64,000 nucleotides of DNA from NCBI RefSeq assembly GCF_964275005.1, contig NC_092688.1, forward strand, positions 21,891,903-21,955,902, in the 5' to 3' direction. The translations under genes were made by a program, and so were the position numbers. The DNA is from Diadema setosum (Eukaryota; Echinodermata; Echinoidea; Diadematoida; Diadematidae). Positions 7,480-60,790 of the stretch are shown piece by piece. Every line of letters begins with the position of its first letter. The first letter of the stretch is position 1. Under the pieces are notes generated by a model that was given only the letters and a program-made list of their open reading frames with translations, was not told the DNA's origin and searched no databases.

Positions 7480-8038
7480 TCACATGTCGGTAACATTCAT
7501 GTACACTTCCTCTTGCCAAGATGGTTTTGAGTCTCCACTGCAGGCCCCTCTTGTTTTGTTCACCTTTGCATACAATTCCTCACAGGGTGCCTTTGCAGCA
7601 GCCGATTCCCCACCTGTTCTCTTCACCCCTGCGTACAAGTCCTCACGAGTTGTTTCCTGTAGTCCATAGTATTCAGAACAACTCGGCATTACTACTGAAG
7701 TCAGTGAAGTGTTGACAGCTGACTTGACGCTGCTCAGCATGGGAAATGTACAAGGGGAGATTTGTTCTTCGTCTGCGGTCTGAGAACCCATCTTGGCTAC
7801 CTCCGCAGCGTCTTGGTAGATGTGATATGGGTCTTCCTGATGAACTGTGACGTCTCCGAATCTGTTGTCCTGATGGTCAAGGAAAATGTGACCTACTGCC
7901 CCAGCGTCAGTACTCGAAGCGTTCAGTGAATTATCTCTCGTGCTCGGATTCTGGCTTGAAATGCCAACAGGATCCATCTGTTGTTGTTCTTCGTTAGAGC
8001 GATCATTCATCTGGTTCAAAGTTTCTGACGGCTTGCGT
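7480..8038 (-). CDS. Gene A exon 10: cytoplasmic tail (shortened)
   Basis: Begins after TACAG in phase 2 with RKPSETLNQMNDRSNEE. The tail is about half the length of genes B and C because the middle is missing in frame: GLQET joins directly to EDLYAGV. Retained tyrosine motifs are YAGV, YAKV (EELYAKVNKTRGAC) and terminal YMNV. YMNV fits the pYxN site of Grb2-type SH2 domains; the others are YxxV. The stop is TGA at 7480. Confidence 0.8.
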
Positions 8039-9652
8039 CTGTACGAACGGAGGGAAAGACATTTAACCATTACTCCATATTATCATGATGGTATGTGGTT
8101 GGCTATATACATTTTTCTTCACATTCAAAATTTTTGTGAAGTCAGACTTACAGATTAACGTCATAAGAAAATTCACAGATAAAATCGAGAGGAAGACCTA
8201 AAATTCTTTTGTTTGTTTGTTACATTGGTGAGTTTTTGTATGTATGTGTGTTCGGGATGATCCACAAATCTCTCATCTGAATGCACAAAAAGTTCACATT
8301 TGTCAGTTATCATAGAATATCTCATTCATACATTTTGAGCAATATACTTTATGTTCGCACAATTTAGACTTATTTGATTATGAGTATTGGACAGTTATAC
8401 AAATCTCAAGTCTAAGTGTCCCATGCGTATGTATGTGTGCGTGTGTGTGTGTTTAAAGACTCACGTTTTCTGCTGATTCTTGCATCGCGTCATGGTTAGT
8501 ATGATAAGCAGCACCAGAGCGACACACAGGAAGGTCCCCGTAAGGCTGTATATGATAACATTTGTCTCAGATGTCGAGTCAATAACTGGAAGATATTTGA
8601 TAGAAGTGGAACATAGTCATTTACATAGGGAATCACATAGGGATTTCGTCAACAATTTGACGATATTTACAAATGTGTCAGTAAGCTACGTTGTAATTTT
8701 AGATTTGCTTATACAATGTACAACAAAATTAATAATTTTAATGGACCATGGGTATAAAGGATGTCTTCTGGGTTTGCAAAAATTGTTATTCAAGCCGATT
8801 ACTAAATTTCAGCAGTATGAATATCAGCCTATGATTTTACATTTACCTGGCAATTTGGACACAACTGCCGAGACAACAAAATTTGATAGTCTACATCCAT
8901 CACTCCTGGGAAGGTCTTTCAGTTTTACTTTAGAGCTTGTTCATTTTTCTTTTTATTATGTACAAGGAGAAGGGCAAAACGAAGAGCTAAAGTAAAACTA
9001 CGGACTGAATGTTGTGGACTTCTTTGGGTCGCAACTTACTTGAAGAAGATGTTGGACTTGACATCGCTGAGGTCCTCGATTCTGGAATATGTTTTCTATC
9101 GCCTGTTGACAAAAAGAACACAAGGGTATTTATGGTAGTAGTAGACAAAGTAACAGCATAAACAAACCACCCTGTTGAGGACCGAATTGAGTAAGGCCTA
9201 TACAAAAATTTCTATACCTATTCATAGCATTATGTTAGGGTAAACATGGATGCACCTTTATTGCCATCTTTTGACTAGGATTGTCGGGTACAAGTTCCTG
9301 TACGGTAATTTAAAAAAACATGCATGCTATTCTTTTATAAGCTGATATGGCAGGGCGAAAGGCGGATGGAATTTAGTTTTGTCCCTTCTTTCTTTTTGTT
9401 ATGTACAAGGAGAAGGGTAAAACGAAGAGGTAAAGTAAAAATACGGACTGAATGTTGTGGACTTCTTTGGGATCGCAACTCACTTGAAGAAGACGTTGCG
9501 CTTGACATTGCTGATGTCATCAATTCAAGGATATGTTTTCTATCGCCTGTTGACAAAAAGAAGATCAAATTCAGATTTCGCCCTTATCAGTATAATACAG
9601 TGTAGTTACAAATCTGTCAATGTTAGCACACAAATTGACATGTGCTCTCGCA

Positions 9653-9701
<49 letters not shown>

Positions 9702-12700
9702 AACACACACAACTACACCCACACACAAACACACGCATATATACACTATGTATAAATATATTACACATGGAGAGGTGCAATTATCCAATCACAGCGCAAT
9801 CATGTCATCTTGTTTTATTTTGTAAAATACTAGACGCTCAGCTCCATTTTCGTAATACTTATTTTGTACTCTTGTCTGTATCACGTATGGGCGCTGTGCT
9901 AATTTTGCTATCTTCCCATTTATTGCCTATAAAAAAGAAAGAAAGAAACAAACGTATGAAAAGTGCACTTTCATATTCGTCTAGGACACTTTGCTCATTA
10001 GGAAACTGATGCTTTGTGTATGTTAAAGAAAATAATGTGTCACTGAAAGTCGTTTTTCAAATACATATTTATACAATTATAGTAACATAATATTGTACAT
10101 AATGCCGTGAAAGTTAACTTTGATGGGACTTAACCATTTCAGTTGCATATTTCTTACGAACACTGAATTCTGGTTTTGTTTTGTTTTTTTCTGCTAGTGA
10201 CCATAGTCATACCACATCTTGAGACCGTTTACAATCGTCGGAGGTGTAAATTTGTACTCTGGTAACTGGTGTAATGTGCTAGTCATATTGTTTTTAACGA
10301 TACAGAATATTACATTTATTGTAATCTACATTAAATTGGCACAATACTGAGTTGGGTACTGGCCATCCCTAAGAAGACAAAAATATTCTCTCGATTCGGT
10401 ACACACTGCTTACACTGCTTACACACTGCGTACACACGATATACTGTATATACTATGCTATATCATTATGAGCGTACCGATTGTTGTTTGTTCGACTGCT
10501 TGACAAGATGGCTCTGAAGCGTTCCAAACCGGGAAGTAAGTCGACCATCCGGGTCGTCTAACACACTGAAGTGTAGCGCTGCCATTGATGACGTAACCTT
10601 CTCTACAGGTGAGAATGATCTTAGACCCAAACCTCGTGATTTCGTAGTCCCAATTGCCATTGGTTACATGTCTAGGATGATCACAAACTCCGACTGAAAC
10701 TATCAATGAAAGAGAAAGCCAGGGATTCCAAGCGAAAAACGGAATCACGAAAAAGAATTAAAATGAAAGCACTTAGCCAAGTATTCCAGAATCAATTTGG
10801 CTAGTTTTCATATGGTGCAAATGATTGTTAATCAGAGGTTTTGTTTTTTTAACACATAAACCAATTACCCTATCTTTAGAAAGGATGCACGATCTTTATT
10901 TCTTTTATTTTTTTTCTGAGCCGTATACTTTACGCTTTAAACACCGTAAGGAATGATGAAAATGAAAGTTACTGCAACCATCATCAATAATAATTGACGT
11001 AAGGGTTGAAGATTGTGAAGATGGTAATATCGATTATAGACGTTGAAACACGTTTGTAACACTTTTAGTTTAAAGAGGAAATTCACTCCAAATGTAAGTT
11101 AATCAAATAAATAAAGTAAAATCTTACGAGTTCAACGGTAAAAATTTAACTGAAATCGGATGAAAAAAAAGGAAGTTATGACATTTTGAAGTTTTGCTAA
11201 TTTCTGCAAAACAGTTCTTGAACAGTTGATATGAATATGCAAAAGAGTGAGCTAACCATGTCATACCCCCACAACTTTCCATTGATCGTGTAAAAAAGAA
11301 TGACGAAAATTCAATGTTTCCGTCACTGAAGTCTGAAACATGACGTTATTTTCTGGATGTATACCTTCAGAGAGGATTTGAGCCTCGGGCATAATTGCGT
11401 TTGAATAAAAAACTGGAAATTCCACAATTTTGTGTACAAACTATATGGTAAGATGTGAGGGAATGACATGCTCACTTTGCCATTTGCATATTCATACTGA
11501 CCGTTCAAGAAATGCTCCCCCAATAGCGAAAATTCAGAATGTCATAACTTCCTTATTTTTCGTCTAATTTCAATCAAATTTATACCGTTGAACTCGTAAT
11601 ATTTTACTCTTTCTTATCAGACTTATATTTGGACTGGATTTCCCCTTTAAAACAAGACGTACCAACGACATAATTAGAAAGTATCGACTGTGTTACTAAC
11701 AAATGTCACAAGAATAAACTTTTGTTGTAATAAAGATTGATGGACTAATGATGGTCAAGATGAGACAGAGCTTTGACTTTATACTATCACCGAATCTCTG
11801 CTTCTAATACTCACGGGAGAAAAAATAATGAAAATTTGGTTGGGTCGACAGACGTTTCTCCCTAAGACATCTCCAGTCGTGAATGCAGGCTGAAGAATTG
11901 CAGAAGGTGTTGTAATCTTCTGGTTGAAAACATGTACACTTTCCTTGATGCATGACAGCAATGCCATTGTTTTTAGGCTTTCTTATACAGTGAGATACAC
12001 ATTCTCCCGAGGAGGGAATAGCAAATCCAAGGTGAGAGAAAGCCTGAACTACCCTATCGTCGCCTTGGTAGCATCCAAGAAATCCTGGGTCTACGTAGAA
12101 CGTGGATATAAGTATGACATACTGGTTATTCTGTACGAAATTTCTTAGTGTAGACACTTATCAAACAAACTGCAAAATAATTATATTTTAAACAATAAGA
12201 ACTCAAACGTTGGAAAGTAAAATAAAAGAGCGTTTGAACTCTGACAGCAGTTCTTAATGAAGTTCTACGTGCATTAGGCCCTAAATCACGTTATCACGTG
12301 GTTATGGCGATATATTGTATATGCCTTCTGAAGTATATCGAATTAGAGTGTAAGTGGCATTAGAGGGAACGACGTTTTGTTTTTAATACAAACTAATACA
12401 ATAACATTGTCAATGATGAAAAATGTTGTTTCCTAATGAATGTACGGTTGGTTGGTTGGTTTTGGTTTACTGCAACGTTTTGTTCGCATACGTACATCAG
12501 AAAGTCAGGCTTTTATTTATGGCTAATGTTGATATTTATGCGCCCTCAAGACATATGTGACCCGCTACAACAAAAGGATCCGAAAGTCGGGGGTGAACAA
12601 TTTTCTGAAAATGACATGGCATTATTCCCTTACTCTTCCACTTTAATTTCATAGAACATGACTCATAAAAGTGAGAAAACCACCTTCAAAGTTTTCCTTC

Positions 12701-15641
12701 CCACACTATCATGATCAAGGGGAGGCAAGACAGTTTTTCACTGCTTGACAATAGAAGGTATGCTCCTAGCAACCTCCGCAGTGTTCATTCAAGCTTAGCG
12801 CCAGCAGTCTAGCACGACCAGTCAGTAACCAGGATGCCACTCACTGACAAATAAGATCACTTCCTCGTTGCTAGGGGCGGGGTCTAGCTGCGGCGCTAAA
12901 TCCAAATCTTCGGACACATTTCTGTTCCGTTGACAGTCGGAAAAATCATGGCCCAGAAAAACGCTATTTTCTTGCTTTTCCTTCCGTTATTTAGCTTCGA
13001 AATTTCGGCAGATGTTAGACGATACATTAGACTACAAAATTATGCCAAAAACAAAAATCCGATCGTTTTGACCGCTTTTGATGATCTGACTTCAAACTCG
13101 ATTTTCTTGGCTCGGCCGTCAGCGACTTTAGGATCCTTTTGTTGTAGCGGGTCACATATTCATATGTTTGTATGCACATCTAAACATATTGTACATACTT
13201 AGTCTCACCTCTGCATTTGAGTCTGACATGCTTATTCGACGGACACTCAGTGGTTTCCAGTGAACAATCCATTAAGCGGAGGGAACCTGTGAATTGATAT
13301 GAAAATTGCTTGTAGATTTGTTATTCGAAAGATTATCTCGTCACTAGCAAAAGTTATCATAATGATGCTGCATTATATTTGGTTATGCCAAATATCTCAT
13401 GTTTCTCTCAAAGTATGAGTTTTAAACTTTTCCTAAAATTCTCAGGGCACATGTGGATGTATCATGCTTACTGCACACTGTCGTATACCGTAGAAGGGTT
13501 TGTACTTTTTAAGATGAATTTCTGATTTCGATTCCTGAAGGTGCGTTAATCCTTGGAAAGATATTAAGATATCTTAGTATCAGGGCTGCACTCTACTCAT
13601 GCTGGTGTATGTTTTTAATGCTTAAATTCACTATCTCGGCGCTATTCTGAAATCTTTATGTTGCTGACTATTCTGCCCGCATCTTATAGAAATTAAACAG
13701 TGCAGCACATGATGCTTACATCTCATCTTTTCAATGGCTTAGTACAGTCTCAAATTTCAAAACAACCTTTAACTTTGCAACTTGCAGTTGTAGTCGTCGT
13801 TAAAACTGAGTTATCAAAATTTTGTAAAATCAAGGTTTCCTTGCAAAAATCCTTTTTTTTTTGGGGGGGGGGTGACTTTCGAAGAATCACAAACAATTAA
13901 TGTGCATACATAATATTACTGTAATATTACGATATTTATCATTATGTTTCGTAACATTCTGCGACTCAGATGATCTGAGCGTTCAATACTGTTTAATTAC
14001 TTTACAAACGTAGAATGGAATAGAACACTATCTCAATCATTTGCCAGATGCAAAGTATGTTCTACCCCGATGCAATATACATATATTCGCGTAATTTGTC
14101 ACCCGAACACACGGGGCCTACGTTTTCCCTGCTAAAGCTGTTTAGTGCTTTGTAGTTATAATCAGATAGTAAAGAATGACAATGCACACAACATAGCCAT
14201 ATGATATATAAGTTGCATTAGGCATCGTCTCATGGATTTCTCTTTTTTTTTTTCATTCTGCTGACTAATACACGAAATTTTCGTAACGTACTGCAGGAAT
14301 CTTCCTGGACCTCTCCAAGGCCTAACACGATTAACCACGACATTCTTCTTTATAAACTTAATCATTATGGCATACGTGGGAAGGCCTTGGAATGGTTCAG
14401 AAGCCATTTGAAAGACAGAAAACAATTTGTTTGTATAAACAATGAAAGATCTTCTTTGCGTTCAGTTGATTGTGGAGTTCCACAAGGAAGTATACTAGGG
14501 CCGTTACTTTTTATTATCTACATCAATGATTTTCCAAAATCTTCAAATGTTCTTTCTTTTATATTATTTGCAGATGATTCTAATCTTTTCTTTTCTCATT
14601 CAAATCCTCATACATGAGTTGATATTATGAATGTAGAATTGAACAAGATAATGCAATGGCTAAGAGCAAATACATTATCGCTTAATTTGCAGAAAACAAA
14701 TGTGATGTTATTTAGTAATACTCTTGATAAATTGCCACATGATATAATTTTTGAAAATGAAGTGATAAAACAGGTTCATTCTGTTAGATGTCTTGGTGTA
14801 ACTATAGACAGTAAGCTTTCTTGAAAACAACATTATAGATTGTATATGCCGCACAATTTCCAGTAACATAGGTGTAATCAATAAAGTAAAGTTTTGTTTT
14901 CCTGTTAAAACGTTGTTAATGTTATATTCAACGTTAATTTTACCTTATTTGATGTATTGAATTCTAGAATGGGGAAATACACATTCAACTTATTTGGATT
15001 GATTATTTTTGTTTTAAAAAAAGTACTTCGAGTAATATGTAATACCTCCAAATATTCCCATACTGACGGATTATTTGTGGAGAATAAGGTTTTGAAAATA
15101 AGGTTTTTGTATTATTATTACCTTGGTCAATTTATGTACAGTTTGCATAATAATTCACTTCCTTTAGTTTTTGAAAATATGTTTAATAAGAATAAAAATA
15201 TTCATAAATACCCCACTCGTCAAACAGATGAGTATCATTTGCCCCTCACCCGAACTTTACTTACAAAATCCACGTTTATTTACAGTGACCCAAAATTTAG
15301 GAATTCCCTCGAGAAAAATATAAAAGATTCTATTAGTTTGAAATCATTCTCTAGTAATCTAAAGAAATATTTGATTAGCTCATATGTACCCCATGATTAG
15401 TTTGACTGTTTGGAATTGTTCTTTTTTCTTCACCCTGCATCGAGAATGCTGACCTTCCCTTCGCTCTCTCTACTCCCCCCTCCCTCACTCCCTCTCTCTC
15501 TTTCCCTACTCTCTTCTGTGTGTGCACAATGTATGTGGATGCATACATGTGTGTGTACGTGCGTGTGTGTGCGTATGTGTGTGTGTGCTTGTGTGTATAT
15601 GTGTGTGTATGTGTGTGTGTGTATGTGTGTATGTGTGTGCA

Positions 15642-18865: not shown

Positions 18866-21800
18866 ATATTTACGTAAATAATTTAGCGCATAATTTACAA
18901 ATAAAATGGACGGAAGCTTGGGAGAGCGTAGCCAGCTAACTTTCATATAACGAAGTGAAAGGCTAATTCTGCGTATTATGTCAAATTTTGATCATTGTAG
19001 AGACTTATCGAGCGTGTTCAATAAAGCCGTTGATAACAGTCAATAACATTGTTCTGCAAAAATTTTGCAAAGAAAGAAATTAGGAGTATTTACATATACC
19101 CACGGACCGTATCAAAATAAGATACCTGCATTAGATTACTGTTTGTACCTAGAAATGTTTGATAAAGGGTACTTGCTCCCATGTCCGTTATGTGGCCCAT
19201 TAAAATATTTCTATTAATTTTTTATCAACTCATATTTATGAGTAATTTGAAAACAAAATCGAAGTCATGAAGTTTAAACATTTCATGTTGGTGCCTTTGT
19301 AACATGAGAATTTATATCTACAGATTGACTGAAAATGAAATTTCTGACATCTTATTTTCCTTATATTTGTCATTTTCTCCTTTTTGGGGCCTATCGCTCC
19401 TCCGTGACAGAAAGATACGTTTCACCCTCTGCGTACTAGAACAATATCGCAAAGTAAACAACAATCTTTTTACAGGGCGGAGAGGATGTTATGGGAATAC
19501 CTGTTTTCCGAAATGTGGTTTTGTTCACTTTACTTGTTCTCAGACACAGATAACAGATATTTCAGTGAGAGAATACTCTGCAAAAATGGTTCTATATAAC
19601 CCTATATCGTGCATCCCTCTTCGTATTTTTCATCTGTTTTCTCCTTGTTCGGGCAAAGTAGAGGTATTGTCGAGCCTACATAATCATCTTAAGGCTTCTC
19701 CTACACATTTTTTTTTTTTTGTATGTATATACGTATTTGTCTTTAAATCAAAGGTTTTGTTTACTCTAATACATATTTTTTTTTTTCCGCTTTGATAGCT
19801 GTAGCTGTGCTGTGTAGCTTCGGTCGAGTATTCTTCAAATGTAACAATACGTAAAGAGAGAAAAAAGTATTTCAGGAGTACTATACAACTATATATGCTC
19901 ATATTTTTTTTAAGTGTATTGGTTACCTCTGGTCCGTCCGATATCCGGAAATTAATACCAAAGATTTCAGGGAACTGCAAATAAACAAGCTTGCGTTGAT
20001 AAACACATCATGCACGCTCATTCTCTATTTTCCATTCTTTCTGTATCACTGATAATTTTGTTCATGGTACCTATGTTCAGAGGAGAATTAATTCCTCTGA
20101 GTTAATATGAAAATAAACAAATTTAAAAAGTGAATTACCATGCCAAAGAAGAGTTTGAAAAAGTAAGGCTCATACAACAGCAATGACCATCGGAGAAAGT
20201 AATATGAAACAACAAGAATGTAATTACTTGAAATTTTGAGTGGCAATGAATGTAGAATGCATGCAAATATAAATTCTACAAATGTATATTACATCAGAAA
20301 TTTAGGGGTCTGTAAAAAAACAAACAATAGAAAATGATACGATAGTGAATCATATTCTTGCTTTCGTCTGTGCTCATGTAATATACGCTATTCAAAAGCA
20401 AAAACTATTTTACCATTACAATCAGTGACTGATCATCATCGTTATGCATTAGTAATATTATTGCTTCAACGATATCATCATCATCGTCGTCATCTCATCA
20501 TCTTCATCATCATCATCAATGTAATCATCATGATCATTATCATCACGATTATCGTTATCTTGTCACGATTATCATCATTACGGTACAGTAAAGCCAATGT
20601 CAATTGACTCGTCACTTTCCACAGAAACTACTGTCAGTATTTTCTCCACTCATCTCCAGGCTCTTTAAATTCCTTATCCATTGAAACACCGATAATAATA
20701 ATGTGGTAAGTACATTGTAAGTCACATCCTTAAGACTCATTTATTTATTCCTGCAACCGTTAATACAAAAGTCTAATTCCGGGAAAAATCTAAACACCGC
20801 CTGCTAAATACAATCTAAATTCTAATCTTGTGGATGGTCACTGGGTTAGAGGTATCAGGTTAAGTTTAATGTACTTATCTGCTTTGACAAAGCATTTTAT
20901 GAATCTAAGTGGCTCGGAGTTGCTCCTCGGTTTGAATGCGAATATAACATAGTGATTATTGCCAATTTGAACTAAATGCATATTACTTTGAAGGAGAAAT
21001 TATGCGCTACCTTTTTTCTTTTCGAAAACTGTGTAAGTATACATGTTTGCACATGTTGAGTCTTGAAATCACCTGCATGATCTTCACAAGTGTTTTATAC
21101 CCTAGGTATATCTGTATTCATATTTGTGGTTTCATGACGAAAAAGTATGCTTAAGCAAAAATGGAAAAATCCATGTACACATTTGACCTCTGTTCCAGGT
21201 TCCAGCAAAAATGACACACTTATAGACCCATTTATACTCGAGATAAAGTCATTATACTCACCGTTGAAACACTGCAACATCAACCTGAATATCACTGGGA
21301 ACTTATATATTCCATATCCGTATCTTCGTCTTATGGGTCAGTGACAGGAGAACAGAAGACAGCGTGTGATTCTCAATCAGAATTTTGGATGATTTCTTAG
21401 ATATTTCATCCAGAACATCAATTCCCATGACTTTGTTGTTGGTAGACTCAATTTCTGAAAGGATTCGCCGTCCACGGGGTGCCCGTATAACCCAGATATG
21501 ACCCTTTGTGACGCAGTCTGCATCACACGACAGATTTAGGGACAGTGGATCATCGGAACAGTTCAGAGAGAAATCTGCAAAGAAAAAAAATCGGGACGTG
21601 GAAGTAAATCTTTGACCATTTCTTACGAGCCTTTGCGAAATCCCCACTAAAGAGTAATCACTGCTTTAGCGCTTGGACAAATGAGTATAAAACAGACGCA
21701 CAAATTAGGAAAAAAAAACACCCTCCAACTATTTATCAATACTCTCTGATCAAGTCTAAGTTAACAGTTTTACTGTTCAATTTGACAGAATAATTTTTCG

Positions 21801-22211
21801 AAAAGAGAAAACGATATCTCTATCTTCTGTATGTGTGCCTTTTGTACAATCTATCTTTATTTTATTTTTTTTTTAGCTTCGCACTGCCAATCTGGAAAAC
21901 GACTTTGATTAGCCTCATCTGCTCTCAATGCTAGCAGTTTAACTGCTGTACCGCTATACTGGATATCAATGGTGAATATAAAATCAAGCGGTGGCTTAAA
22001 AGTCGGGAAAACTATAAGATAATTGTGTTAAACTGACTCTACTAGGTTTTCTTGTTACAGAAATGCAGACAATCCAAGGGATGAATAACTATGTGAAATA
22101 CGTATTCATAGAAACAAAATACTTACACTCTGTAGTTGTTTCCGGCGTTGACGACGTAGTGAACGGATTGTAAAAAATGAGACCAGCAAACACCCATACA
22201 AATGAAGCCAT
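7480..22211 (-). CDS. Gene A: CUB/SRCR/WSC/CCP single-pass receptor (spliced, ten exons)
   Basis: A predicted type I membrane receptor. Exons from 5' to 3' on the minus strand: signal 22127-22211, CUB-like 21262-21574, SRCR part 1 16091-16300, SRCR part 2 13209-13286, WSC 11815-12090, CCP 10478-10699, stalk 9484-9546, duplicated stalk 9040-9102, transmembrane 8465-8585, tail 7480-8038. All have GT/AG borders with matching phases: 1 throughout the ectodomain, 2 before the tail. The architecture implies sugar/protein-binding modules outside and SH2-docking tyrosines inside. The ectodomain reads cleanly except at the end of the CUB exon, where an in-frame TAA and a shift separate the domain from its conserved donor. 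Either that copy is impaired or the exon border differs. Introns hold a LINE and two MITEs. I do not recognise a named orthologue; an innate immune role is inference. Confidence 0.75.
8465..8585 (-). CDS. Gene A exon 9: transmembrane segment
   Basis: Begins in phase 1 after CTTCCAG and reads STSETNVIIYSLTG, then FLCVALVLLIILTM and TRCKNQQKT. That is one hydrophobic helix followed by a basic stop-transfer, giving type I topology. It ends in phase 2 (AC) at GTGAGT. Confidence 0.8.
9040..9102 (-). CDS. Gene A exon 8: duplicated Ser/Thr-rich stalk
   Basis: A 63-bp phase 1-1 exon reading GDRKHIPESRTSAMSSPTSS, with acceptor CAACAG and donor GTAAGT. The duplication (period 444 bp) includes about 110 bp of intron past the donor, for example GTACAAGGAGAAGGG at about 8960 and 9405 on the + strand. 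It lengthens the stalk without changing phase. Confidence 0.7.
9484..9546 (-). CDS. Gene A exon 7: Ser/Thr-rich stalk
   Basis: A 63-bp phase 1-1 exon (acceptor CAACAG, donor GTGAGT) reading GDRKHILELMTSAMSSATSS. Probably an O-glycosylated stalk between the CCP and membrane. It has a near copy 444 bp downstream. Confidence 0.7.
9653..9745. repeat. (CA)n-rich microsatellite
   Basis: CACATA hexamers followed by pure CA repeats. Confidence 0.9.
10478..10699 (-). CDS. Gene A exon 6: CCP/sushi domain
   Basis: After acceptor GATAG it reads VSVGVCDHPRHVTNG, then FGSKIILTCREGYVINGSAT, LQC and WSTYFPVWNASEPSC, with the four cysteines and the late Trp of a complement-control-protein module. It ends TTIG in phase 1 at GTACGC, a weaker donor than in B (GTGCGT). 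CCP modules bind proteins, often complement components. Confidence 0.85.
11074..11646. mobile_element. Foldback MITE with TTAA target duplication
   Basis: TTAA flanks both ends (11070-11073 and 11647-11650). The terminal arms AGAGGAAATTCACTCCAAAT and its near-complement at the right end continue as arms including ACGAGTTCAACGGTA. Large arms and TTAA sites suggest a piggyBac-type non-autonomous element. It sits in gene A intron 5. Confidence 0.75.
11815..12090 (-). CDS. Gene A exon 5: WSC domain
   Basis: Acceptor CTACGTAG, then DPGFLGCYQGDDRVVQAF, ECVSHC, a GKCTCFQPEDYN segment, and a C..SSAC..DWRC end. This is the WSC pattern of paired cysteines around G.AV...G.C.C. WSC domains are thought to bind carbohydrate. 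It ends FSR in phase 1 at GTGAGT. Gene B is very close; gene C is interrupted at this exon's end. Confidence 0.85.
12557..13155. mobile_element. Non-autonomous inverted-repeat DNA element (TIR GTGACCCGCTACAAC)
   Basis: Terminal inverted repeats start GTGACCCGCTACAACAAAAG, and the last 19 bp are the complement. Both ends are flanked by ATAT (12553-12556 and 13156-13159), a 4-bp target duplication. It shares internal sequence with the element at 22945, including a GCTAGGGGCGG block. It lies in gene A intron 4, 54 bp from exon 4. No transposase is present. Confidence 0.85.
13209..13286 (-). CDS. Gene A exon 4: SRCR-like domain, part 2
   Basis: A 78-bp exon, CACAG acceptor and GTGAGA donor, phase 1 on both sides. 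Reads SLRLMDCSLETTECPSNK, then HVRLKCRG, supplying the last cysteines of the SRCR-like domain begun in exon 3. Near-identical exons exist in genes B and C. Confidence 0.75.
14270..16024 (+). mobile_element. 5'-truncated, decayed LINE (RT domain to 3' tail)
   Basis: Reads GIFLDLSKA.., TINHDILLYKLNHYGIRGKA, then VDCGVPQGSILGPLLFIIYI and FADDSNLF, the fingers/palm motifs of a non-LTR reverse transcriptase; the FADD box marks the catalytic site. A C-terminal part (about 14957-15400) ends SSYVPHD. Frameshifts and stops separate the parts (for example after PHT at 14617 and after KLS at 14824). The element ends in (TGAAA)n at about 16003-16024. It lies antisense in intron 3 of gene A. A TG-rich microsatellite sits in its 3' region. 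Confidence 0.85.
15535..15685. repeat. (TG)n/(TGTATG)n microsatellite
   Basis: Imperfect TG repeats within the 3' region of the LINE. Long open frames on both strands here are artefacts of the repeat. Confidence 0.9.
16091..16300 (-). CDS. Gene A exon 3: SRCR-like domain, part 1
   Basis: Begins after TTTTCAAG in phase 1 and reads SSVKLVDGPSPTEGVVVF, then YVCLYGFTAKIAELICGELG and FPAAERY. This is the SRCR pattern (VRLVGG...EG.V.V, VC..G....A..ICRELGFP), shortened. It ends CPYG in phase 1 at donor GTATTA. A LINE tail ends only about 67 bp downstream in the next intron. Confidence 0.75.
17830..17940 (-). mobile_element. LINE C-terminal relic
   Basis: Minus-strand translation gives RSLKLTAAEL*NKLPTHF followed by a DDF block. 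This resembles the conserved C-terminal segment of CR1/L2-type LINE reverse transcriptases (A..LWN.LP..I..S.....FK). It has stops and is a short decayed fragment in intron 2 of gene A. Confidence 0.45.
18796..18861. repeat. (TA)n microsatellite
   Basis: TA dinucleotides with a single CA interruption near the middle. Confidence 0.95.
20455..20580. repeat. (ATC)n-rich imperfect trinucleotide repeat
   Basis: Interspersed CATCAT, CGTCGT and ATCATT triplets. Confidence 0.85.
21262..21574 (-). CDS. Gene A exon 2: CUB-like domain
   Basis: A consensus acceptor (TTTGCAG) gives FSLNC...LSCDADC, then W-V-I-R-A-P-R-G-R-R-I, a CUB-like strand pattern in which a conserved Cys pair precedes W.I.AP.G. A good donor (GTGAGT at 21261) is conserved in position in all copies. 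In the phase set by exon 1 a TAA follows IRIWNI, 38 bases before the donor. The phase needed by exon 3 instead reads IFRLMLQCFN up to the donor. So the exon is homologous throughout but its frame breaks in an AT-rich spot near 21305. Confidence 0.65.
22127..22211 (-). CDS. Gene A exon 1: signal peptide
   Basis: The start at 22211 is chosen because all three paralogues share MAS followed by a hydrophobic run (here MASFVWVFAGLIFYNPF) and then a short Ser/Thr stretch TTSSTPETTTE. An upstream in-frame ATG exists but its extension is not shared. The exon ends in phase 1 at a consensus donor, GTAAGT (22126-22121). Confidence 0.8.
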
Positions 22212-39428: not shown

Positions 39429-41635
39429 CATATATACTAGCAGTAAATAAAGAAATAAATGTCAGAAAAAACACGTTCTTTTATGAACAGTCACTCATAA
39501 AATGTTTATAAACATGTAAAGAAGTACATTAGTCTTGATTTTGTTTTTACCTCTTTTTACGTATCTATGTATCTCTTTATGTATCTATCTGTCTCTATCG
39601 GTACTCTACCTGAGGTGAGTCTATGAACACTTTGATTTGCAGTTTGGGAGATGGATTTTTTTTTTTTTTTTCAGTCAAAATGATATGCACATACCATATC
39701 AATTCGCTCATTTCTTTTTCTTTTGTTCTTGTTTCTTTTCTTTTTTTAACATTTAATCACCATTGTTAATTTGAAATAAAGACAAGGTATCCGGTTTAAA
39801 TTGTTCAAAAATTTCAATGCCGGGGTAATGGCCGTGTGCCTTATACACTGTAGTAAAAAACAAAACAAAACAAAACAATGAAAAACGCTGGATATTCTTA
39901 ATATCAAGAGAACACTATCGATACCAAAAGTGCAGCTCAGTGTACCGATATTCCTACTGCCATTTTGTATTATTGTAATCGATATCATAATGGGTTACTT
40001 GCAGTAATATCCGCAATTATTTCTTTTTTGTCATGAAACCTTCTTAACGTAAGTAAGACGATAATTCTGTCATGGACAGCTGACAATCAAGATTAATTAA
40101 CGGGGAATGGGATGTTGCCAAGTTGCTGGTGAATCAAATGCCTAATTCTATCCTTATTTCGTCCATCATTTACGTACAAAGGGAAAGGAAGCACCTGGGC
40201 AAAACTTCATGAAAAAGAGAAATTCCACCACTGATAGAATATAATATTATATTTAAACTACTTTTGGTGTTTCTTGAGGAATATCCGGAGTTCTTTTTTT
40301 TTTTCAATGAACCCGCTCACTGTTTTGCTGAAATTCTGCCAACACAAAGAATCAGCATTTCTGCTCATGCTTCAGAAACAATAAACATCGCAGAAAAGAT
40401 TTGCCCAATTGAGGATATATGCACTGAGGCGTTTAAATTCCATTTTTGCCGGCACTTTGCATTGCTGATATACTACCTAACAACGGAATTCTACCGAAAA
40501 ATAACCCCGAGAGAAAACACACGCAAACGTATAACCATGTATTTAACTCTAGATATCAAATTCCAATATGAAAGTCTTGAAAATCTGGAAAATCAGTTTA
40601 TGTATTTGACCTGTGTTCACGGAAAAAGACACACACACACTTGTAGCTAAAATCGAGAGAAAGTCACTATTGCTTACCATTGAGACACTGGAACTTCAAC
40701 CTTAATATCACTGGGTACTTATATTAATGTCCTATAATCCGTAGCTTCGTCTGGTGGGTCAGTGATAGGAATGTAGAAGACAGAGTGTAATTCTCAATCA
40801 GAATGTAAGATGATTTCTTGGATATTTCATCCAGAATATCGATTTCCATTCTTTTGTTATTGGTAGACTCGATTTCTGAAAGGATTCGCCGTCCACGGGA
40901 TGCCCGTATAAACCAACTATGACCGTTTTCTACACAGTCTTTATCACAAGACAGTTCAAGGTCTAGCGGATTCCCGAAACAGTTCAGATGGAAATCTGCA
41001 GAAATAAGGAAGTCAAGTTTTGGTAGTAAATAATTGAATAATAGTGTCTAATGACATGTATGAGTTTTTCAAATCTTGCGCAAGAATAATATGACTGCTG
41101 CATAAAGCACTTGGACAAGAAACTAAGCCACACAAGAAGAAGATTATATGCAAGTAGATGAAGTCACACTTTAGTATTATACTGCTCAAGTCAGGATTAC
41201 ACTTGTCAACTTGACAGAATGATTTGGGAAACGAGAATACAACACTAGTATTTTAATCCACTGTATGTTTTGTTTTAAAATACCTTTTTTGTTTCTGCTT
41301 CTGACCGATAATCTGGATAATTACTGTAGATTCATCATCAAGTAATGCTAGCAGTTTTGCTGCAATACTGCTATTGTGGATATCAACAATAAGTATTAAA
41401 TCAATCAGTGGCCTAAGAGTCTGAAAAAAATGACACGGTGGTGTTTACTGACTGGTATGAGGTTTTCTATTTATAAAAATGCAGACAATCTGAAAGAAGA
41501 ACAACTATGTGAACTACGTGTTTATCAAAAAGAAAATAAAAAATACGTACACTTTTTGGTCGTTTCCGGCGTTGACGAAGTAAGGAACGGACTGTAAAAA
41601 ATGAAACTAGCAATCAACAGTACAATGGAAGCCAT
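28096..41635 (-). CDS. Gene B: CUB/SRCR/WSC/CCP single-pass receptor (spliced, nine exons)
   Basis: Same architecture as gene A. Exons: signal 41551-41635, CUB-like 40678-40996, SRCR 37083-37295 and 35247-35324, WSC 34521-34796, CCP 33671-33892, stalk 32261-32316 (frameshifted), transmembrane 29866-29986, tail 28096-29290. Total about 850 residues, roughly half cytoplasmic. Two lesions are visible: a TAA in the CUB exon just before its last 13 codons, and a 7-bp shortening of the stalk exon. Because that exon is phase 1-1, skipping it would keep the frame into the transmembrane exon. The best-preserved tail of the three suggests recent function, though the CUB stop leaves this open. Confidence 0.75.
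29499..29646. mobile_element. Hairpin MITE with GGGGCCCGTTTCATAAAAC ends
   Basis: About 35-bp perfect inverted ends, starting GGGGCCCGTTTCATAAAACT, surround a core of about 78 bp. A hairpin of this kind is, from memory, widespread in marine invertebrate genomes. It lies in gene B's last intron. Confidence 0.8.
29866..29986 (-). CDS. Gene B exon 8: transmembrane segment
   Basis: Begins in phase 1 after TTTCAG; reads TSGTKNMIYSLTG, then FLCVALALLAIVAM and TRRKNKQKS. One helix and a basic stop-transfer. Ends in phase 2 at GTGAGT. Confidence 0.82.
30018..30430 (-). mobile_element. Fragment of a retroelement with GIY-YIG-type C-terminus (Penelope-like candidate)
   Basis: Minus-strand frame reads AKFAHLKNTGHHFEDKG, then WFEREFREAVYVNAENLSLN and GGLRYNLSPTYN. 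The pattern H....GH.F.D, ERE..EA.Y....PSLNR..G..LS..Y matches the C-terminal region I associate with GIY-YIG-bearing Penelope-like reverse transcriptases in marine invertebrates. It is truncated and lies in gene B's stalk-to-membrane intron, just above the transmembrane exon. Confidence 0.5.
32261..32316 (-). pseudogene. Gene B stalk exon, frameshifted
   Basis: Homologous to gene A exons 7 and 8 (GDRKNI at the start, acceptor TTTACAG, donor GTGAGT) but 56 bp instead of 63. The 7-bp shortfall makes a TGA after six codons. Inclusion would truncate the protein; skipping keeps phase 1. Probably not in the functional transcript. Confidence 0.7.
33671..33892 (-). CDS. Gene B exon 6: CCP/sushi domain
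   Basis: Reads VSVGVCDHPIHVPNGDW, FGSMVTHTCKEGYFTDG, LQC and WSTYFPVWYDSVPSC with the four canonical cysteines, ending TTVG in phase 1 at GTGCGT. Confidence 0.87.
34521..34796 (-). CDS. Gene B exon 5: WSC domain
   Basis: Acceptor CTACGTAG, then DPGFLGCYHGDDTVFKAF, KCVLNC, GKCTCFQPEDYN, a C..SSVC..DWRC end and HYSFSR, donor GTAAGT in phase 1. About 92 residues, the usual WSC length. Confidence 0.87.
35247..35324 (-). CDS. Gene B exon 4: SRCR-like domain, part 2
   Basis: A 78-bp phase 1-1 exon, acceptor CCAG, donor GTAAGA. Reads SLRLVDCVLETIECSSNS, then NVTIKCRG with conserved cysteines. Confidence 0.78.
35868..36410. other. Part of gene B intron 3 (SRCR part 1 to part 2) without recognised content
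   Basis: Near 35925-35947 a short hairpin GGCTACAGCCACGTGCGTGT overlaps its complement. From about 36411 a TTCAATTCAATTTAATTC stretch looks like the reversed (AATTG)n tail of a minus-strand LINE. No exon seen. Confidence 0.4.
37083..37295 (-). CDS. Gene B exon 3: SRCR-like domain, part 1
   Basis: Reads SSVKLVDGLSPAEGLVIY, YVCFDGFTAKTADMICEELG, FPAAEGY and ends RLSCSDG in phase 1 at GTAACT. Clear homologue of gene A exon 3. Confidence 0.8.
38707..38945. mobile_element. Short MITE with ~28-bp inverted ends
   Basis: TTTGCAAAAACCGATAAGTC at the left is complemented by GACTTATCGGTTTTTGCG at the right. Length about 240 bp. It lies in gene B intron 2. Confidence 0.7.
39370..39425. repeat. (TA)n microsatellite
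   Basis: TA dinucleotides in gene B intron 2. Confidence 0.92.
40678..40996 (-). CDS. Gene B exon 2: CUB-like domain
   Basis: Acceptor ATCTGCAG, then FHLNCFGNPLDLELSCDKDC and W-F-I-R-A-S-R-G-R-R-I, CUB-like as in A. In gene B, unlike A and C, the phase is right at the donor (GTAAGC), reading YKYPVILRLKFQCLN, but a TAA precedes this segment near 40716. The exon is 5-6 bases longer than in A and C, all of it in the AT-rich spot. Confidence 0.65.
41551..41635 (-). CDS. Gene B exon 1: signal peptide
   Basis: MASIVLLIASFIFYSPFLTS followed by a short Thr-rich stretch and a donor GTACGT in phase 1. A typical hydrophobic secretion signal, aligned with exon 1 of A and C. Confidence 0.8.
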
Positions 41636-47366: not shown

Positions 47367-47700
47367 AACTTTTATTGTTGTATTTGGTTATTTTATTTAT
47401 GTCAGAAATAAGTGACCATTAAATGCCATTTATGTTATTTGACAAGCAAGCATGCTTTTATGTTGGCCTCATATTTCTATTTTCCTGCATGATGTATTTC
47501 AGTTGTAATTTTATGCTCAAGTAAAATTCAGTTGTATTTGGTTTTCTGTGCATCGTGAAGTGAATGAACATAAATGAAATGAAATTAATCAAATTCTGGG
47601 ATTCCATCCGTATACAAGATACGACCACAACATGTGCATGCCATTCTTCAAGTCATGTGTCACTAAAATTCATGTACAGTTCCTCTTGCCATCCTGGTTT

Positions 47701-48891
47701 TTAGTCACCGCTGCAGGTCCCTCTTGTTTTGTTCACCGTAGCATACAACTCCTCACAAAGTGGAGGTGCTGTTGACGACGCTCCTACCGCTTTGTCCACT
47801 TTTGCGTACAATCCCTCACAAATGTGAGGTTCCAAGTTTGCGGTGTCATGGCGGTCATGGAAGTCGCTTTCTGTCATTATGGAAAGGGAGACACCGTTGG
47901 CATCATTTTGAGGATTCAGCACACTGTATTCTTCGGAGTCGAAAGCCTCAGGAAATTGCGGTTCGTTGCTAGTATCAACTTTACTCCGTTCCTCGCGTTC
48001 TAGTCGATAGCAGAAAATGTGTCCAGAAGGTTCGGTTGGTAAGAAACCCATACTAGTAGAGGACGTATTAGTGTTTCCTCTATCAGAGTAAACGATTCTC
48101 TTTGGACTGGAACCGGAACCATGGAGTGCATGGTTGTAACTTTGCGCTTGTCGTCGAGGGGTGCATAATGGATGCGATTGTACTCCGTGCAGCCAGAGAT
48201 ATTGTGGGCATGTTCGTTAGGGTCGCTTAATTCTGCATACTCATTTACGATTGCCGTCTCTAGCTCAGAAGTGTTGACAAATCTGTCTTCATGAACATGC
48301 GTGCTGCAGGGGCTTGCATTACATTTTCGAGGGTATACTTTGTCAGACCGTTTACCGAAGTCCAGCGAATTGTAACACCGGTCATCAAACAAGCGCGCTC
48401 CAGCAGATCTTGATACTGCACCATTCGCCGCCCTGTTGATTCTCCGAACATCTACATCCTGGTAATCGTCGTCCTCACAGCCGCCCGCTGATCGGTTCAG
48501 TGATGTTTCCTGTAGGCCACGGTATTCAGAGCAACTAGGTATAGAAGCCAGTGAAGTACTGACGGCGGATTGGACGCCGCTCAGCATGGGAAGTGTAGAA
48601 GAGGAGATTTGCTTTTCGTCTGCAGTCTGAGAACCCACTTTGGCTACCTCCGCAGCGTTTTGATAGATACGATACTGGTCTTCCTGATGAATTGTGGCGT
48701 CTCCGAATCTGTTGTCCGGAATGTACCGGAAAGAGTGACCTACTGCACCAGCTGCGGTTCTGCTATCACTCAGTGAATCAACATTATCCCCCATGCTGAG
48801 GTTCTGGCCTGACGTGCCAACAGGGAACATGCGTGTTTGTCCGTCATTAGAGCGATCATCCATGGGGTTTACAGTTTCTGACTGCCTGCGT
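47701..48891 (-). pseudogene. Gene C exon 10: cytoplasmic tail, frameshifted and truncated
   Basis: Begins RRQSETVNPMDDRSNDG and matches gene B closely through CEDDDYQDVDV. Near 48150 one base is missing relative to gene B (GACGACAAGCGCAAAG against GACTACATAGCACAAAG), shifting the frame to a stop at 48000. In the other frame the homology resumes with SMGFLPTEPSGHIF, YSVL, YAKV and YATV, but TAA replaces a Ser codon before the final motif. Confidence 0.8.
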
Positions 48892-49308: not shown

Positions 49309-49426
49309 GCTTTTAGCTGATTCATGCACCGCGTTATGGCTAGTATGGCAAGCAGTGCAAGAACGACACACAAGGAGGTCCCAAGGCTGTACATGATGAT
49401 TTTCGTCTGATGTAGCAACTCGGTCA
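49309..49426 (-). CDS. Gene C exon 9: transmembrane segment
   Basis: Reads TELLHQTKIIMYSLGTS, LCVVLALLAILAI and TRCMNQLKA; ends in phase 2 at GTGAGT. 118 bp, one codon shorter than in A and B. Confidence 0.78.
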
Positions 49427-51271: not shown

Positions 51272-51334
51272 CTGAAGGAGACGTATGACTTGACCTCGTT
51301 GATGTCGTCAATTCTAGAATATTCTGTCCGGCAT
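51272..51334 (-). CDS. Gene C exon 8: Ser/Thr-rich stalk
   Basis: A 63-bp phase 1-1 exon reading DAGQNILELTTSTRSSHTSP, homologous to gene A exons 7 and 8 and of the same length; donor GTGAGT. Confidence 0.7.
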
Positions 51335-52358: not shown

Positions 52359-52580
52359 CGACTGTTTGTTGCTTGACTGCCTGACAAGATGGCACTGAAG
52401 CGTTCCAAACCGGGAAGTAAGTCGACCATCCGGGTCTTCCAACACACTGAAGTGTCGCGCCTCCGTCGACGATGTAGCCTTCTCTACACGTGAGAGTTAT
52501 CATGGATCCGAACCTCGTGATATTGGAGCTCCAATCACCATTAGATACATGGCTGGGATGATCACAAACCGCAACCGAAA
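52359..52580 (-). CDS. Gene C exon 6: CCP/sushi domain
   Basis: Reads VSVAVCDHPSHVSNGDW, FGSMITLTCREGYIVDG, LQC and WSTYFPVWNASVPSC with four cysteines; ends QTVG in phase 1 at GTGTGT. Confidence 0.85.
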
Positions 52581-53252: not shown

Positions 53253-54063
53253 TGTTAAAGGGAAGATAAACCCAAAGAGCAATGTGGATTGAGTAAAAGC
53301 AGCAACAGTAGTAGAACACATCGGTGAAAGTTTTAGGAAAATCGGACAATCGTTGCAAAAGTTATGAATTTTTAAAGTTTTAATGTTGGAACCGCTGGAT
53401 GAGGAGACTACTAGAGGTTATGACGTATCAGAGGACAATGATACAAAGAAAATATAAAGGAAATTCAACAAAAATTCATTTTTCTAGCATTATGGAAGAG
53501 CACTTGACTAACCGCTTTCAGAAAGCAGGGGGAATAATTGCTACCCTTAACATATGTCAGTATCAAGTTGACGGAATTTGTAATTTTCATGAAAAATTGA
53601 TTTTTGTAGCATTTTCTTTATATTTTCTTTGTATTGTTGTCCACTCATACGTCATAACTTCTAGTAGTCTCCTCATCCAGCGGTTCCAACACCAAAACTT
53701 TAAAAATTCATAACTTTTGCATCGATTGTCCGATTTTCTTCAAACTTTCACTGATGCGTTCTACTAATGTTGCTGCTTTCACTCAATCCACATTGCTCTT
53801 AGGGTTTATCTTCCCTTTAAAAAAGTAGCGAACATTTTCTTCCTCACTTGGACACTCCCAACTGTGAGAACAGGTTGAGGAACAGCCGCTGTAATCCATT
53901 TGTTGAAAACATGAACACATGTTCCGATGCATGACAGCAGTGTCATAGCGAATTGGGCGTCTTACACAGGTAGACGCACATTCTTCGTAAGAATGAACTT
54001 CATATCCAGGATAAGCCTGAAATACCTGATAGTCACCCTGATAGCATCCGAGGAATCCAGGCA
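53253..54063 (-). pseudogene. Gene C exon 5: WSC domain interrupted by a transposon
   Basis: Reads VPGFLGCYQGDYQVFQAY, ECASTC, NMCSCFQQMDY and C..TCSHSWEC, a complete WSC domain, then NVRYFF before entering the element at 53816. With one TTAA and no element the exon would end RYFFN plus one base at GTGAGT (53252), matching HYFFSR in gene A in phase. As it stands translation stops inside the element. Confidence 0.8.
53259..53816. mobile_element. Foldback MITE with TTAA target duplication, inside gene C exon 5
   Basis: TTAA flanks at 53255-53258 and 53817-53820. Arms of about 200 bp are almost complementary (AGGGAAGATAAACCC at one end, its complement at the other; GGAACCGCTGGATGAGGAGA further in). 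Genes A and B have the empty site. TTAA preference suggests piggyBac-type mobilisation; there is no transposase. Confidence 0.88.
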
Positions 54064-54575: not shown

Positions 54576-54653
54576 CTCGGCACTTGAGTCTGGCAAGCTT
54601 ATCCGAAGGACACTCAGTGGTAGCCAGTGAACAACCCATTACACGTTTAGAAT
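54576..54653 (-). CDS. Gene C exon 4: SRCR-like domain, part 2
   Basis: A 78-bp phase 1-1 exon (acceptor CATAG, donor GTGAGG) reading SKRVMGCSLATTECPSDK, then LARLKCRG. Confidence 0.77.
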
Positions 54654-56750: not shown

Positions 56751-56963
56751 CTTGAGAACATGTCAACCTCTGAGTCTTGTTACGTGTTGCTGTGCGGGGC
56801 AAACTCTGAGTTGAATATTCTTCTGCCGCTGGAAAGCCAAGCTCTCCGCAGATCAGTTCGGCAGCTTTGTCGTTGAATCCATCATAGCAGACATAGCTGT
56901 CTGGTTGGAGGAGCACCAAGCCTTCCAAGGGAGAGGGTCCACCATCCAGTGTGACAGATGGTT
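56751..56963 (-). CDS. Gene C exon 3: SRCR-like domain, part 1
   Basis: Reads PSVTLDGGPSPLEGLVLL, SYVCYDGFNDKAAELICGE, LGFPAAEEY and LTCSQG, phase 1, donor GTAAGT. A GC-rich G-tract region follows in the intron. Confidence 0.8.
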
Positions 56964-57074
56964 CTTGGAAATAAATGAGATCTAATTAAAAGCCTTGGTT
57001 CATTGATGATGACAGAAATGAGTGATCAATATGTTTTATGCTACATCACGATCTCGAAGGGATCGTATAGTTTT

Positions 57075-57715: not shown

Positions 57716-58094
57716 TCAAAAAACGAAAACAAAAAGTCGCACATACTGATATTGTGTGAGGACTGAAAGTAGGTGAAACGGGTCAACCTAGCCAATCTTG
57801 ACTTTTTTTTTTATTTTCTGAAAGGGCAAGTCTTCTTCTACACTATGCTATAATTTGGGGTCATATAACGAACAGGAAAATGTGTATTTTAGCAGGTTAT
57901 CTTGAACATTTTTTTTATATATATATATAGATTAGTGTGATTAGGTGTGTCTGTAGAATCCCCTTTTCATTTCTTAAAAACCTTGTACACACTCTTCACT
58001 TTCAACTTTTATAACTTTTGAAAAAATTAATCATGCACAGAATGTGCTTATGAAGCTTGCTCAATTTGAGCTTAATTTGATTATCCCTTCATTG

Positions 58095-58101
58095 TTATTG
58101 C

Positions 58102-58147
<46 letters not shown>

Positions 58148-58330
58148 TATTCGGTAATTCAATATACAATACAAGTTGACATAAAATACAAACAGAAAAT
58201 TGTATTACATGATATGAAAATTGTGGTGGTTCCAGGTGCTCCGGTGGTCAACATCCTGTTTTTTGTTCCATTCATCGCACAGCCAGCACAGCTTGGTACA
58301 GATTAAAGCGCTTGAATACACTCTGTACTT
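58095..58330 (-). mobile_element. LINE/SINE 3' tail with (AAT)n
   Basis: On the minus strand a segment ends GAATAAATAATAATAATAAT followed by about a dozen more AAT units. That is the form of a non-LTR retroposon 3' end. No coding region is recognisable. Confidence 0.45.
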
Positions 58331-59928: not shown

Positions 59929-60241
59929 CGCTGAAGCATTGCACCTTCAACTTGAACATTACTGGGTAAGTATATATACCATATCTGTAGATTCACTTGA
60001 TGGGACAGTGATAAAACTGGAGACGGCAACGTATGATTCTTAATCAGCATGCGAATTTTTTTAGTAGATAAAACATCGATGATATGAAATCCCATCCTTG
60101 GGTTGTTGATTGACTCAAATTCTAAAAGCACTCGCCGTCCAGAGGTTGCCTGTATAAGCCAACTGTGACGGCTTTGGACGCAGTTTTCATCACACGATAT
60201 GTTCCCGTCTATTGGATCACCGGAGCAGTTCAGATGGATAA
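59929..60241 (-). CDS. Gene C exon 2: CUB-like domain
   Basis: Acceptor CTCTAG, then IHLNCSGDPIDGNISC and W-L-I-Q-A-T-S-G-R-R-V. It stays open through LQIWYIYLPSNVQVEG to the conserved donor (GTAAGT) but arrives in phase 2, while exon 3 needs phase 1. The alternative frame there reads VMFKLKVQCFS, the version conserved in A and B. Confidence 0.65.
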
Positions 60242-60705
60242 CTAGAGGAGACAGAGAGATCAGGAAGGTAAATCTTTAAATCTTATGAAATACCAGTATC
60301 ATAATATACTTTGCTCAAGACGCATACCACGGCTGTGGGCACTGGGTTAACTGAAGATGATCATTAAGAATTATGTATGTCAAAAGGGTCTGTTAATAAC
60401 GCCAGGTATGATAATGCTCTGTTTCAACAGAAAGAGTACAATGTCTGCTTTTGTTTTAAGTAGGATAGATTTGTTTTCTCTTTCCCACAGAAAATAAAGT
60501 TTCTCGCCCTTTACACTTATTAGCACTTCAAGTACTCATACACTGGCCTGATTGCTATGGGAAAAATTGACTGACACTGAGTGTTCAGATGTCGGCTATG
60601 ACCTATTGTAACCAAACTGAATAATGTAAGCATCTCGGGAAAAGAATACGTATTATAGGAAATGCATTTTGAATTCATGGAAATCAAAAAGAAAGAAATA
60701 CCTAC

Positions 60706-60790
60706 CCCATGTCGTTGTTCCTTGCGTCGAAAAAGTGAGGAACGGACTGGAAAAGATGATGCAAACTAACAACCATACTAAGGAAGCCAT
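60706..60790 (-). CDS. Gene C exon 1: signal peptide
   Basis: MASLVWLLVCIIFSSPFL followed by TFSTQGTTTW and donor GTAGGT in phase 1. Start chosen by alignment with genes A and B. Confidence 0.78.

Follow-up and report, generated by a model that had tools for sequence, protein, structure and literature searches.

How can a row of tandem receptor genes be expressed when one of their extracellular exons reads through in none of them? The question arises in a 64,000-nucleotide stretch of the Diadema setosum genome (C4:21891903-21955902; hereafter the window, whose own numbering is used below) that carries three copies, A, B and C, of a gene for a type I receptor-like protein. We compared the window with itself and with the whole of this single genome (912,680,840 bases, 102 contigs). 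The CUB-like exon reads through in none of A, B and C. We lean towards a joint reading in which the trio belong, as tandem copies, to a very large family of type I membrane receptors, and in which the CUB exon of most members examined, those of A and C included, is translated in two frames by programmed -2 (equivalent to +1) frameshifting. The CUB-like exons of the window and their candidate slip sites are:

21262..21574, minus strand: copy A, CUB-like exon of the +1-offset class (body in frame 0, end in the +1 frame)
21305..21310, minus strand: copy A, ATATAT run, putative slip site; TAA is next in the unshifted frame
40678..40995, minus strand: copy B, CUB-like exon of in-frame length with an in-frame TAA
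59929..60241, minus strand: copy C, CUB-like exon of the +1-offset class
59972..59977, minus strand: copy C, ATATAT run, putative slip site

We examined 94 CUB exons: 3 from the window, 3 from genes fetched in full, 8 from search loci and 80 fetched individually. The sample was chosen by hand across clusters from the 150 matches described below and is not random. Three exons were dropped (L097, disrupted; L121, incomplete; L124, too divergent). The remaining 91 fell into three classes: 66 are +1 offset, 22 are in frame (21 open, and copy B with its TAA) and 3 are in a third frame state. In the offset exons, including those of A and C, the body is in frame 0, and the conserved end, YPVxFxxxVxCYxG, is in the +1 frame, mostly followed by the donor GTAAGT. 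The offset class comprises 12/12 scored exons on contig C17, 10/10 on contig C7 and 12/13 on contig C24. Six genes were checked for their phases (A, B, C, C17, C7 and C4p): each enters the SRCR exon in phase 1, and the signal-peptide exon is left in phase 1 in the five in which it was found; the +1 frame is therefore the one that continues the protein. The first 78 body codons are free of stops in all 91 scored exons, as are the final 13 codons of the end frame in all 66 offset exons, while 35 of these 66 run into a frame-0 stop ahead of the donor. Spacers between body and end that are not 31 nucleotides (nt) long occur in 37 exons, of which 22 are in frame, 12 still +1 and 3 in the third state. 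On the exon tree, the class label switches at least nine times on well supported branches.

Several splicing-based accounts of the offset were considered and rejected. An intron in the gap was rejected, the spacer between the conserved parts of offset exons being only 28-43 nt and itself coding. An alternative donor (CCCA/GT) is missing from several offset exons (C4p, L095, L112, L072), and an alternative acceptor (CCCAG/) from many. Reading frame 0 to the donor and entering SRCR in phase 2 was rejected on the phase-1 SRCR entry of the six genes and the frame-0 stops in 35/66 exons. The third-state exons (L107, L117 and L120) have spacers of 29, 32 and 29 nt, and their TA runs measure 7-10 nt; they may be dead copies or use another slip.

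Purifying selection acts on both parts of the exon, each in its own frame, in most of the tested clades that are offset throughout, with one clade against. Over the whole offset class (1,384 pairs), w for the body was 0.51 in frame 0 versus 0.80 in the shifted frame, and for the end 0.42 in the +1 frame versus 1.41 in frame 0. Within clades (values are right/wrong frame, and clades are offset throughout unless stated), the C24 clade (11 exons) gave 0.40/1.10 for the body and 0.25/1.73 for the end, the C7+C4 clade (12 exons) 0.41/0.80 and 0.54/1.78, and a clade of three exons 0.59/1.05 and 0.55/2.27. The bodies of the C17 clade (12 exons; 0.51/0.86) and of a fourth large clade (10 exons; 0.49/1.13) behave in the same way. 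Three in-frame clades of 3-4 exons each were noisy, with clear contrasts in the C6 clade only (0.45/0.76 and 0.36/0.68).

The place of the shift can be narrowed down by alignment. In 54 offset exons of modal length (48 distinct), the stops of both frames allow a shift only between -15 and -5 before the YPV block. Inside this interval, bases -9 to -4 read A45 T47 A47 T48 A48 T48 of 48, wobble sites of both frames included. All 47 distinct spacers use TAT for the tyrosine in this run, while TAC encodes the next tyrosine in 37 of 40; tyrosines of the body are TAT in 43 cases and TAC in 15. The frame-0 arrangement NAT-ATA-T is found in the spacer of 59/66 offset versus 2/22 in-frame exons (Fisher 5e-12; such P values overstate independence because the exons are related, and are indicative only). 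In 64 of the 66 offset exons there is a frame-0 codon with an identical triplet two bases upstream, and in those 64 a -2 slip at that codon opens the frame as far as the donor; L112 has its run further upstream, in the same phase. TA runs of 7 nt or more occur in 60/66 offset versus 7/22 in-frame exons, and the run is absent from several in-frame clades and kept in others.

The slippage itself, its direction, both products and the signalling are what we infer from these sequences. The ribosome would read the body of the CUB exon in frame 0. At an in-phase AU-AUA-U, the P-site tRNA on AUA would slip back two bases onto an identical AUA. The shifted frame would then end the domain in its conserved cysteine and join the SRCR exon in phase 1. 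Without the slip, the ribosome would meet a stop before the end of the exon or shortly beyond it, and the default product would be a short CUB fragment that is secreted; with the slip, the receptor would be made, with LYAxV and YMNV sites in its tail that SH2 proteins could bind. We offer more tentatively the wider proposal that in more than 60 receptor genes of one animal a -2 shift on a six-base AU run may act as a per-gene switch between secreted and signalling forms, one that several lineages would have lost or gained, often together with the run.

Several observations weigh against translational frameshifting at the run. The strict NAT-ATA-T string is also present in 2/3 third-state exons, and a codon identical two bases upstream in 13/22 in-frame exons; perfect -2 re-pairing is not available to L095 and L099, in which TGA comes next; and some in-frame members (L086, L109) carry long TA runs. 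Selection is not uniform either: the C7 exons alone (9) show a weak contrast (body 0.56/0.60, end 0.61/0.98), the end of the C17 clade is nearly invariant (0.12/0.17), so that both frames look constrained, and the end of the fourth large clade gave 0.94 in the expected frame versus 0.51 in the other. In gC17 (L049/L050, C17:25446001-25466000), one of the three offset genes fetched in full, the CCP exon is split by ~1.2 kb without evident splice signals. The CUB identity is itself weak: the window copies have no Pfam match to CUB, 1/13 family members matches at E 0.1, and two hhalign tests gave low probabilities of 9% and 3%, with 0/200 and 2/200 shuffles as high. All of the support comes from the genome sequence of one genome. 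We know of no slippery site of the AU-AUA-U form, and no stable downstream RNA structure was detected (z -1.8 to +1.4 over 15 tests covering 5 spliced mRNAs). Such a stimulatory structure is not needed in all known cases, for example arterivirus nsp2TF, according to the available text of PMC5644247.

The offset could also exist without any recoding, if the CUB exon were skipped or a decaying relic in offset genes and the full receptor were made without CUB. Skipping would keep the frame because all ectodomain introns are phase 1, leaving symmetric exons; sea-urchin SRCR exon loss via a stop codon is on record (PMC10855680, within its available text); the CUB and linker exons of copy B carry lesions; and the selection contrasts are weak or contrary in some clades, as noted above. 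Against this explanation stand the purifying selection on body and end in their respective frames in the C24 and C7+C4 clades, the absence of stops from the first 78 body codons and 13 end codons of all 66 offset exons, the strong donors (GTAAGT in 54/62, counted before four exons were re-assigned) and the conserved ATATAT, and we regard it as unlikely. The same genes might instead produce a short secreted CUB fragment as their sole working product, the remainder of each being a remnant; the unshifted frame does end 89-130 residues from the aligned-domain start in the five genes checked. Yet on contig C17, where 12/12 scored CUB exons are offset, open frames at least 386 residues long hold 15 of the 17 matched tails, in CUB-WSC-tail order, and the second frame is conserved, which makes this the least probable of the alternatives.

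Two further explanations turn on the TA run, whose length is such that one added unit would restore the frame. RNA polymerase slippage could add one UA unit to some of the mRNAs, and the run is indeed a conserved feature; most runs, however, measure only 7-9 nt and those of six offset exons 5-6 nt, and dinucleotide runs so short are unlikely to slip much in transcription. We consider RNA-level repair improbable, more so than skipping. An assembly artefact, in which one TA unit was under-called and the exons are truly in frame, would explain both the missing length and the enrichment of runs of 7 nt or more in the offset class (60/66 versus 7/22). It would have to affect 66 separate exons, among them those with runs of only 5-6 nt (L068, L073, L074, L095, L099, L112), and to spare the 7 in-frame exons that carry 7-9 nt runs; a 7-nt TA run is also present in three long, putatively coding open frames of other fetched loci. 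An artefact appears slightly less probable again than polymerase slippage, and programmed frameshifting is the reading that we carry forward.

Self-comparison of the window resolved three units, homologous to one another and all on the minus strand: C from 60790 to ~47650, B at 41635-28096 and A at 22211-7480. Each contains, in order, exons for a signal peptide, the CUB-like domain, SRCR (two exons), a WSC-like domain, CCP, a linker, the transmembrane segment (TM) and a tyrosine-rich tail. The exons other than CUB are listed below (KD, mean Kyte-Doolittle hydropathy; aa, amino acids):

22127..22211, minus strand: copy A, exon 1, signal peptide, exit phase 1; hydrophobic core, mean KD 2.25 over 11 residues
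16091..16300, minus strand: copy A, SRCR exon a
13209..13286, minus strand: copy A, SRCR exon b
11815..12090, minus strand: copy A, WSC-like exon
10478..10699, minus strand: copy A, CCP (Sushi) exon, by homology to the Pfam-positive exons of B and C
9484..9546, minus strand: copy A, linker exon, extra copy
9040..9102, minus strand: copy A, linker exon
8465..8585, minus strand: copy A, transmembrane exon; mean KD 2.56 over 19 residues
7480..8038, minus strand: copy A, cytoplasmic tail exon, 186 aa, ~200 aa shorter than that of B
41551..41635, minus strand: copy B, exon 1, signal peptide
37083..37295, minus strand: copy B, SRCR exon a
35247..35324, minus strand: copy B, SRCR exon b
34521..34796, minus strand: copy B, WSC-like exon
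33671..33892, minus strand: copy B, CCP (Sushi) exon, Pfam match
32261..32316, minus strand: copy B, linker exon, 56 nt, frame lost
29866..29986, minus strand: copy B, transmembrane exon
28096..29290, minus strand: copy B, cytoplasmic tail exon, 398 aa, single open exon
60706..60790, minus strand: copy C, exon 1, signal peptide
56751..56963, minus strand: copy C, SRCR exon a
54576..54653, minus strand: copy C, SRCR exon b
53788..54063, minus strand: copy C, WSC-like exon lacking a GT donor at the homologous position; 3' end approximate
52359..52580, minus strand: copy C, CCP (Sushi) exon, Pfam match
51272..51334, minus strand: copy C, linker exon
49309..49426, minus strand: copy C, transmembrane exon
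47654..48891, minus strand: copy C, cytoplasmic tail exon, frameshift near 48140, stop near the end; 3' end approximate

Every ectodomain junction that could be placed is in phase 1, and the TM-to-tail junction is in phase 2. The self-comparison and the placement of exon boundaries thus bear out an earlier note on this DNA, which had described the same ordered exons three times on one strand in the same phases, between 7480 and 60790; copy A does end, and copy C begin, at these two positions. Its spacing of about 19-20 kb agrees with the distances between homologous exons of C and B (18.7-19.7 kb) and is too low for those between B and A (19.4-23.2 kb). Intergenic DNA between the units was duplicated together with the genes. 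The ratio of nonsynonymous to synonymous substitution rates (dN/dS) between the copies is mostly 0.2-0.8, with three exon-pair values above 0.8, two of them above 1; for that reason the exons of A, B and C are taken to code. Neither an Rfam scan nor a tRNA scan found anything in the window. Two related stretches on the plus strand (14222-15397 and 62790-63466) resemble, by eye, reverse-transcriptase fragments of a non-LTR (long terminal repeat) element.

The module labels CUB, SRCR, WSC and CCP fared differently in profile searches of the exons. CCP scored 35.4 bits in C and 29.3 bits in B (cut-off 20.7; the scan covered B and C). SRCR was below the Pfam cut-off when exons were scanned singly and reached 33.0, 35.8 and 31.0 bits in A, B and C (cut-off 26.1) once its two exons were joined. 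Group A SRCR domains are defined by six cysteines and a domain split over more than one exon; those of A, B and C each have six cysteines and two exons, which places them in group A by sequence. The Pfam WSC model found no match up to E 10 in the exons of any of the three copies, and the genome's 109 PF01822 matches include none at C4 20-26 Mb. A profile of the WSC-like exons of A, B, C and C17 did align by hhalign to a reference of 20 of those 109 Pfam-found domains, from the same genome, plus two domains from the PDB (probability 83%, E 8.5e-6, 57 columns; 0/200 shuffles as high). An earlier profile test with three references had failed, with 32/200 shuffles as high. The profile test thus supports the WSC-like identity of the exon. 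Profile searches of the PDB returned two irrelevant weak matches each for WSC and CUB and none for a 13-row CUB profile, and AlphaFold2 on three-row alignments gave a mean predicted local distance difference test score (pLDDT) of 37.3 and 36.5. SRCR and CCP therefore stand above their Pfam cut-offs, WSC by a same-genome profile only, and CUB weakly.

The three copies differ in condition. Copy A looks the cleanest and usable from its sequence, every exon being open apart from the CUB offset. Copy B is perhaps usable: its lesions are the in-frame TAA in the CUB exon and the 56-nt linker exon, which is out of frame. Two near-copies of its CUB exon elsewhere (L040, L041) are open where B has the TAA. 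Copy C looks damaged: in addition to the CUB offset, no GT donor follows WSC at the homologous position, and the tail has a frameshift and a stop. The earlier note, which mentions neither these lesions nor the interrupted CUB exons, had spoken of three receptors with tyrosine tails; the tandem, type I receptor-like arrangement and the tyrosine tails stand, but the lesions of B and C mean that not all three copies are whole receptors. Only copy A has a second linker exon (9040-9102 and 9484-9546), and the A tail has lost ~200 residues in frame relative to B, with its last three tyrosine sites retained.

The DNA of each copy contains these sites (LYAxV, LYAxV and [LV]YMN[VF]), in C beyond the frameshift. 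When the tails of B and C are compared (C read across its frameshift with X), tyrosine is kept in 13/15 columns versus 240/390 overall, and 57/82 residues within three positions of a tyrosine are conserved versus 170/293 elsewhere. We also looked for the immunoreceptor tyrosine-based inhibitory and activation motifs (ITIM and ITAM). The ITAM pair is absent from the A, B and C tails; strict ITIM strings number one in A, one in B and two in C, one site being common to A and C and not to B.

The same exons recur across a genome that is very SRCR-rich (best 150 SRCR matches scored of 1,379 candidates). The CUB exon of B found at least 150 matches on many contigs (150 of 239 candidates scored), its WSC exon at least 150 (150 of 177 scored) and its tail at least 148 (104 of 152 scored). 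The trio is thus part of a much larger family, and not, as had been proposed from the window, a locally expanding family of three. On contig C17, the 26 CUB exons among the matches listed alternate with 26 WSC exons, and a matched tail comes next in 17 of the 26 pairs. A distant member fetched from this contig retains CUB, SRCR, WSC, the split CCP, TM and tail, with its signal peptide unmatched. In the genes fetched from C7 and from C4:0.83 Mb, signal peptide, CUB, SRCR, CCP and tail follow one another in the same order; the WSC-like exon was not found in either, and TM was matched in the C4:0.83-Mb gene only.

Other parts of the genome drew attention in these searches. At C4:20.48-20.69 Mb, 1.3-1.4 Mb from the trio, near-copies of trio members share 99% and 98% identity with B in their CUB exons and 96% in a tail; they may reflect a segmental duplication or an assembly question. 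Contig C12 carries at 10.73-10.79 Mb single-exon SRCR matches, all very similar, that are closely packed in tandem, one every ~740-810 bases, and contig C10 carries 78 of the 109 Pfam WSC matches, apart from the family of the trio.

The kind of gene is already known, because a survey of 29 species reports sea-urchin SRCR genes with Sushi (38), WSC (36) and CUB (35) domains (PMC10855680, to the extent of its available text). It describes massive SRCR expansion in one sponge and one sea urchin, with 113 genes in a brachiopod, and places 253 of 359 sea-urchin SRCR genes in tandem clusters. The trio resembles this superfamily in its large numbers, tandem clustering and co-occurrence of Sushi, WSC and CUB. 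It differs in that neither the CUB-SRCR-WSC-CCP-TM order nor a frame offset is described in the available text, in which the word 'tyrosine' is absent from the main part, and in that the SRCRs of the survey's sea-urchin tandem example are mostly single-exon while those of the trio are split over two. A search of the open-access literature by title and start of abstract, supplements lying outside it, found no report of this domain order, nor of frameshifting in sea urchins, echinoderms or SRCR genes. The suggestion of an undescribed system may hold for the order, which no paper so searched names, and not for the kind. Within the scope of this search, the receptor family is a new form of the SRCR expansions already on record for sea urchins; any immune function of the trio is presumptive.

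Among individual receptors, Kremen 1 likewise combines WSC and CUB modules in one cell-surface protein, in the order WSC then CUB in its PDB chains, unlike the trio; it has a kringle, and is not known to have an SRCR, a CCP or a tail of the trio's kind. ITIM and ITAM receptors resemble the trio in being type I proteins with several conserved cytoplasmic tyrosines, and each copy has a strict ITIM string. Unlike them, the trio has no ITAM. None of its three conserved C-terminal sites matches the strict ITIM, and its ITIM strings do not fall at one site common to A, B and C.

Conserved frameshifting is rare in nuclear animal genes, and we know of no large receptor family that depends on it; this one would be the first, if the frameshift reading is true. 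It would then provide a simple per-gene route to soluble and membrane forms of a receptor, and automatic annotation may have split members of the family or discarded them as pseudogenes. The antizyme shift takes place with a stop codon in the A site, as at the putative site of copy A, is under polyamine control and is not known to involve an AU run. Antizyme is like the proposed reading of the offset genes in using a conserved +1 translational frameshift in a nuclear animal gene (PMC5009743, PMC5644247; available text of each), whereas the trio belongs to a multigene receptor family. In the available text of PMC5009743, which deals with frameshifting, neither 'sea urchin' nor 'echinoderm' occurs, and that of PMC5644247 gives antizyme and a few retrotransposon-derived genes as the conserved vertebrate cases, with ASXL proposed. 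The arterivirus nsp2TF shift, as described in the same text, is like the proposed site in being a -2 shift at a short motif with no downstream RNA structure, and differs from it in being viral and in using an RG_GUC_UCU-type site and protein stimulators (PMC5644247).

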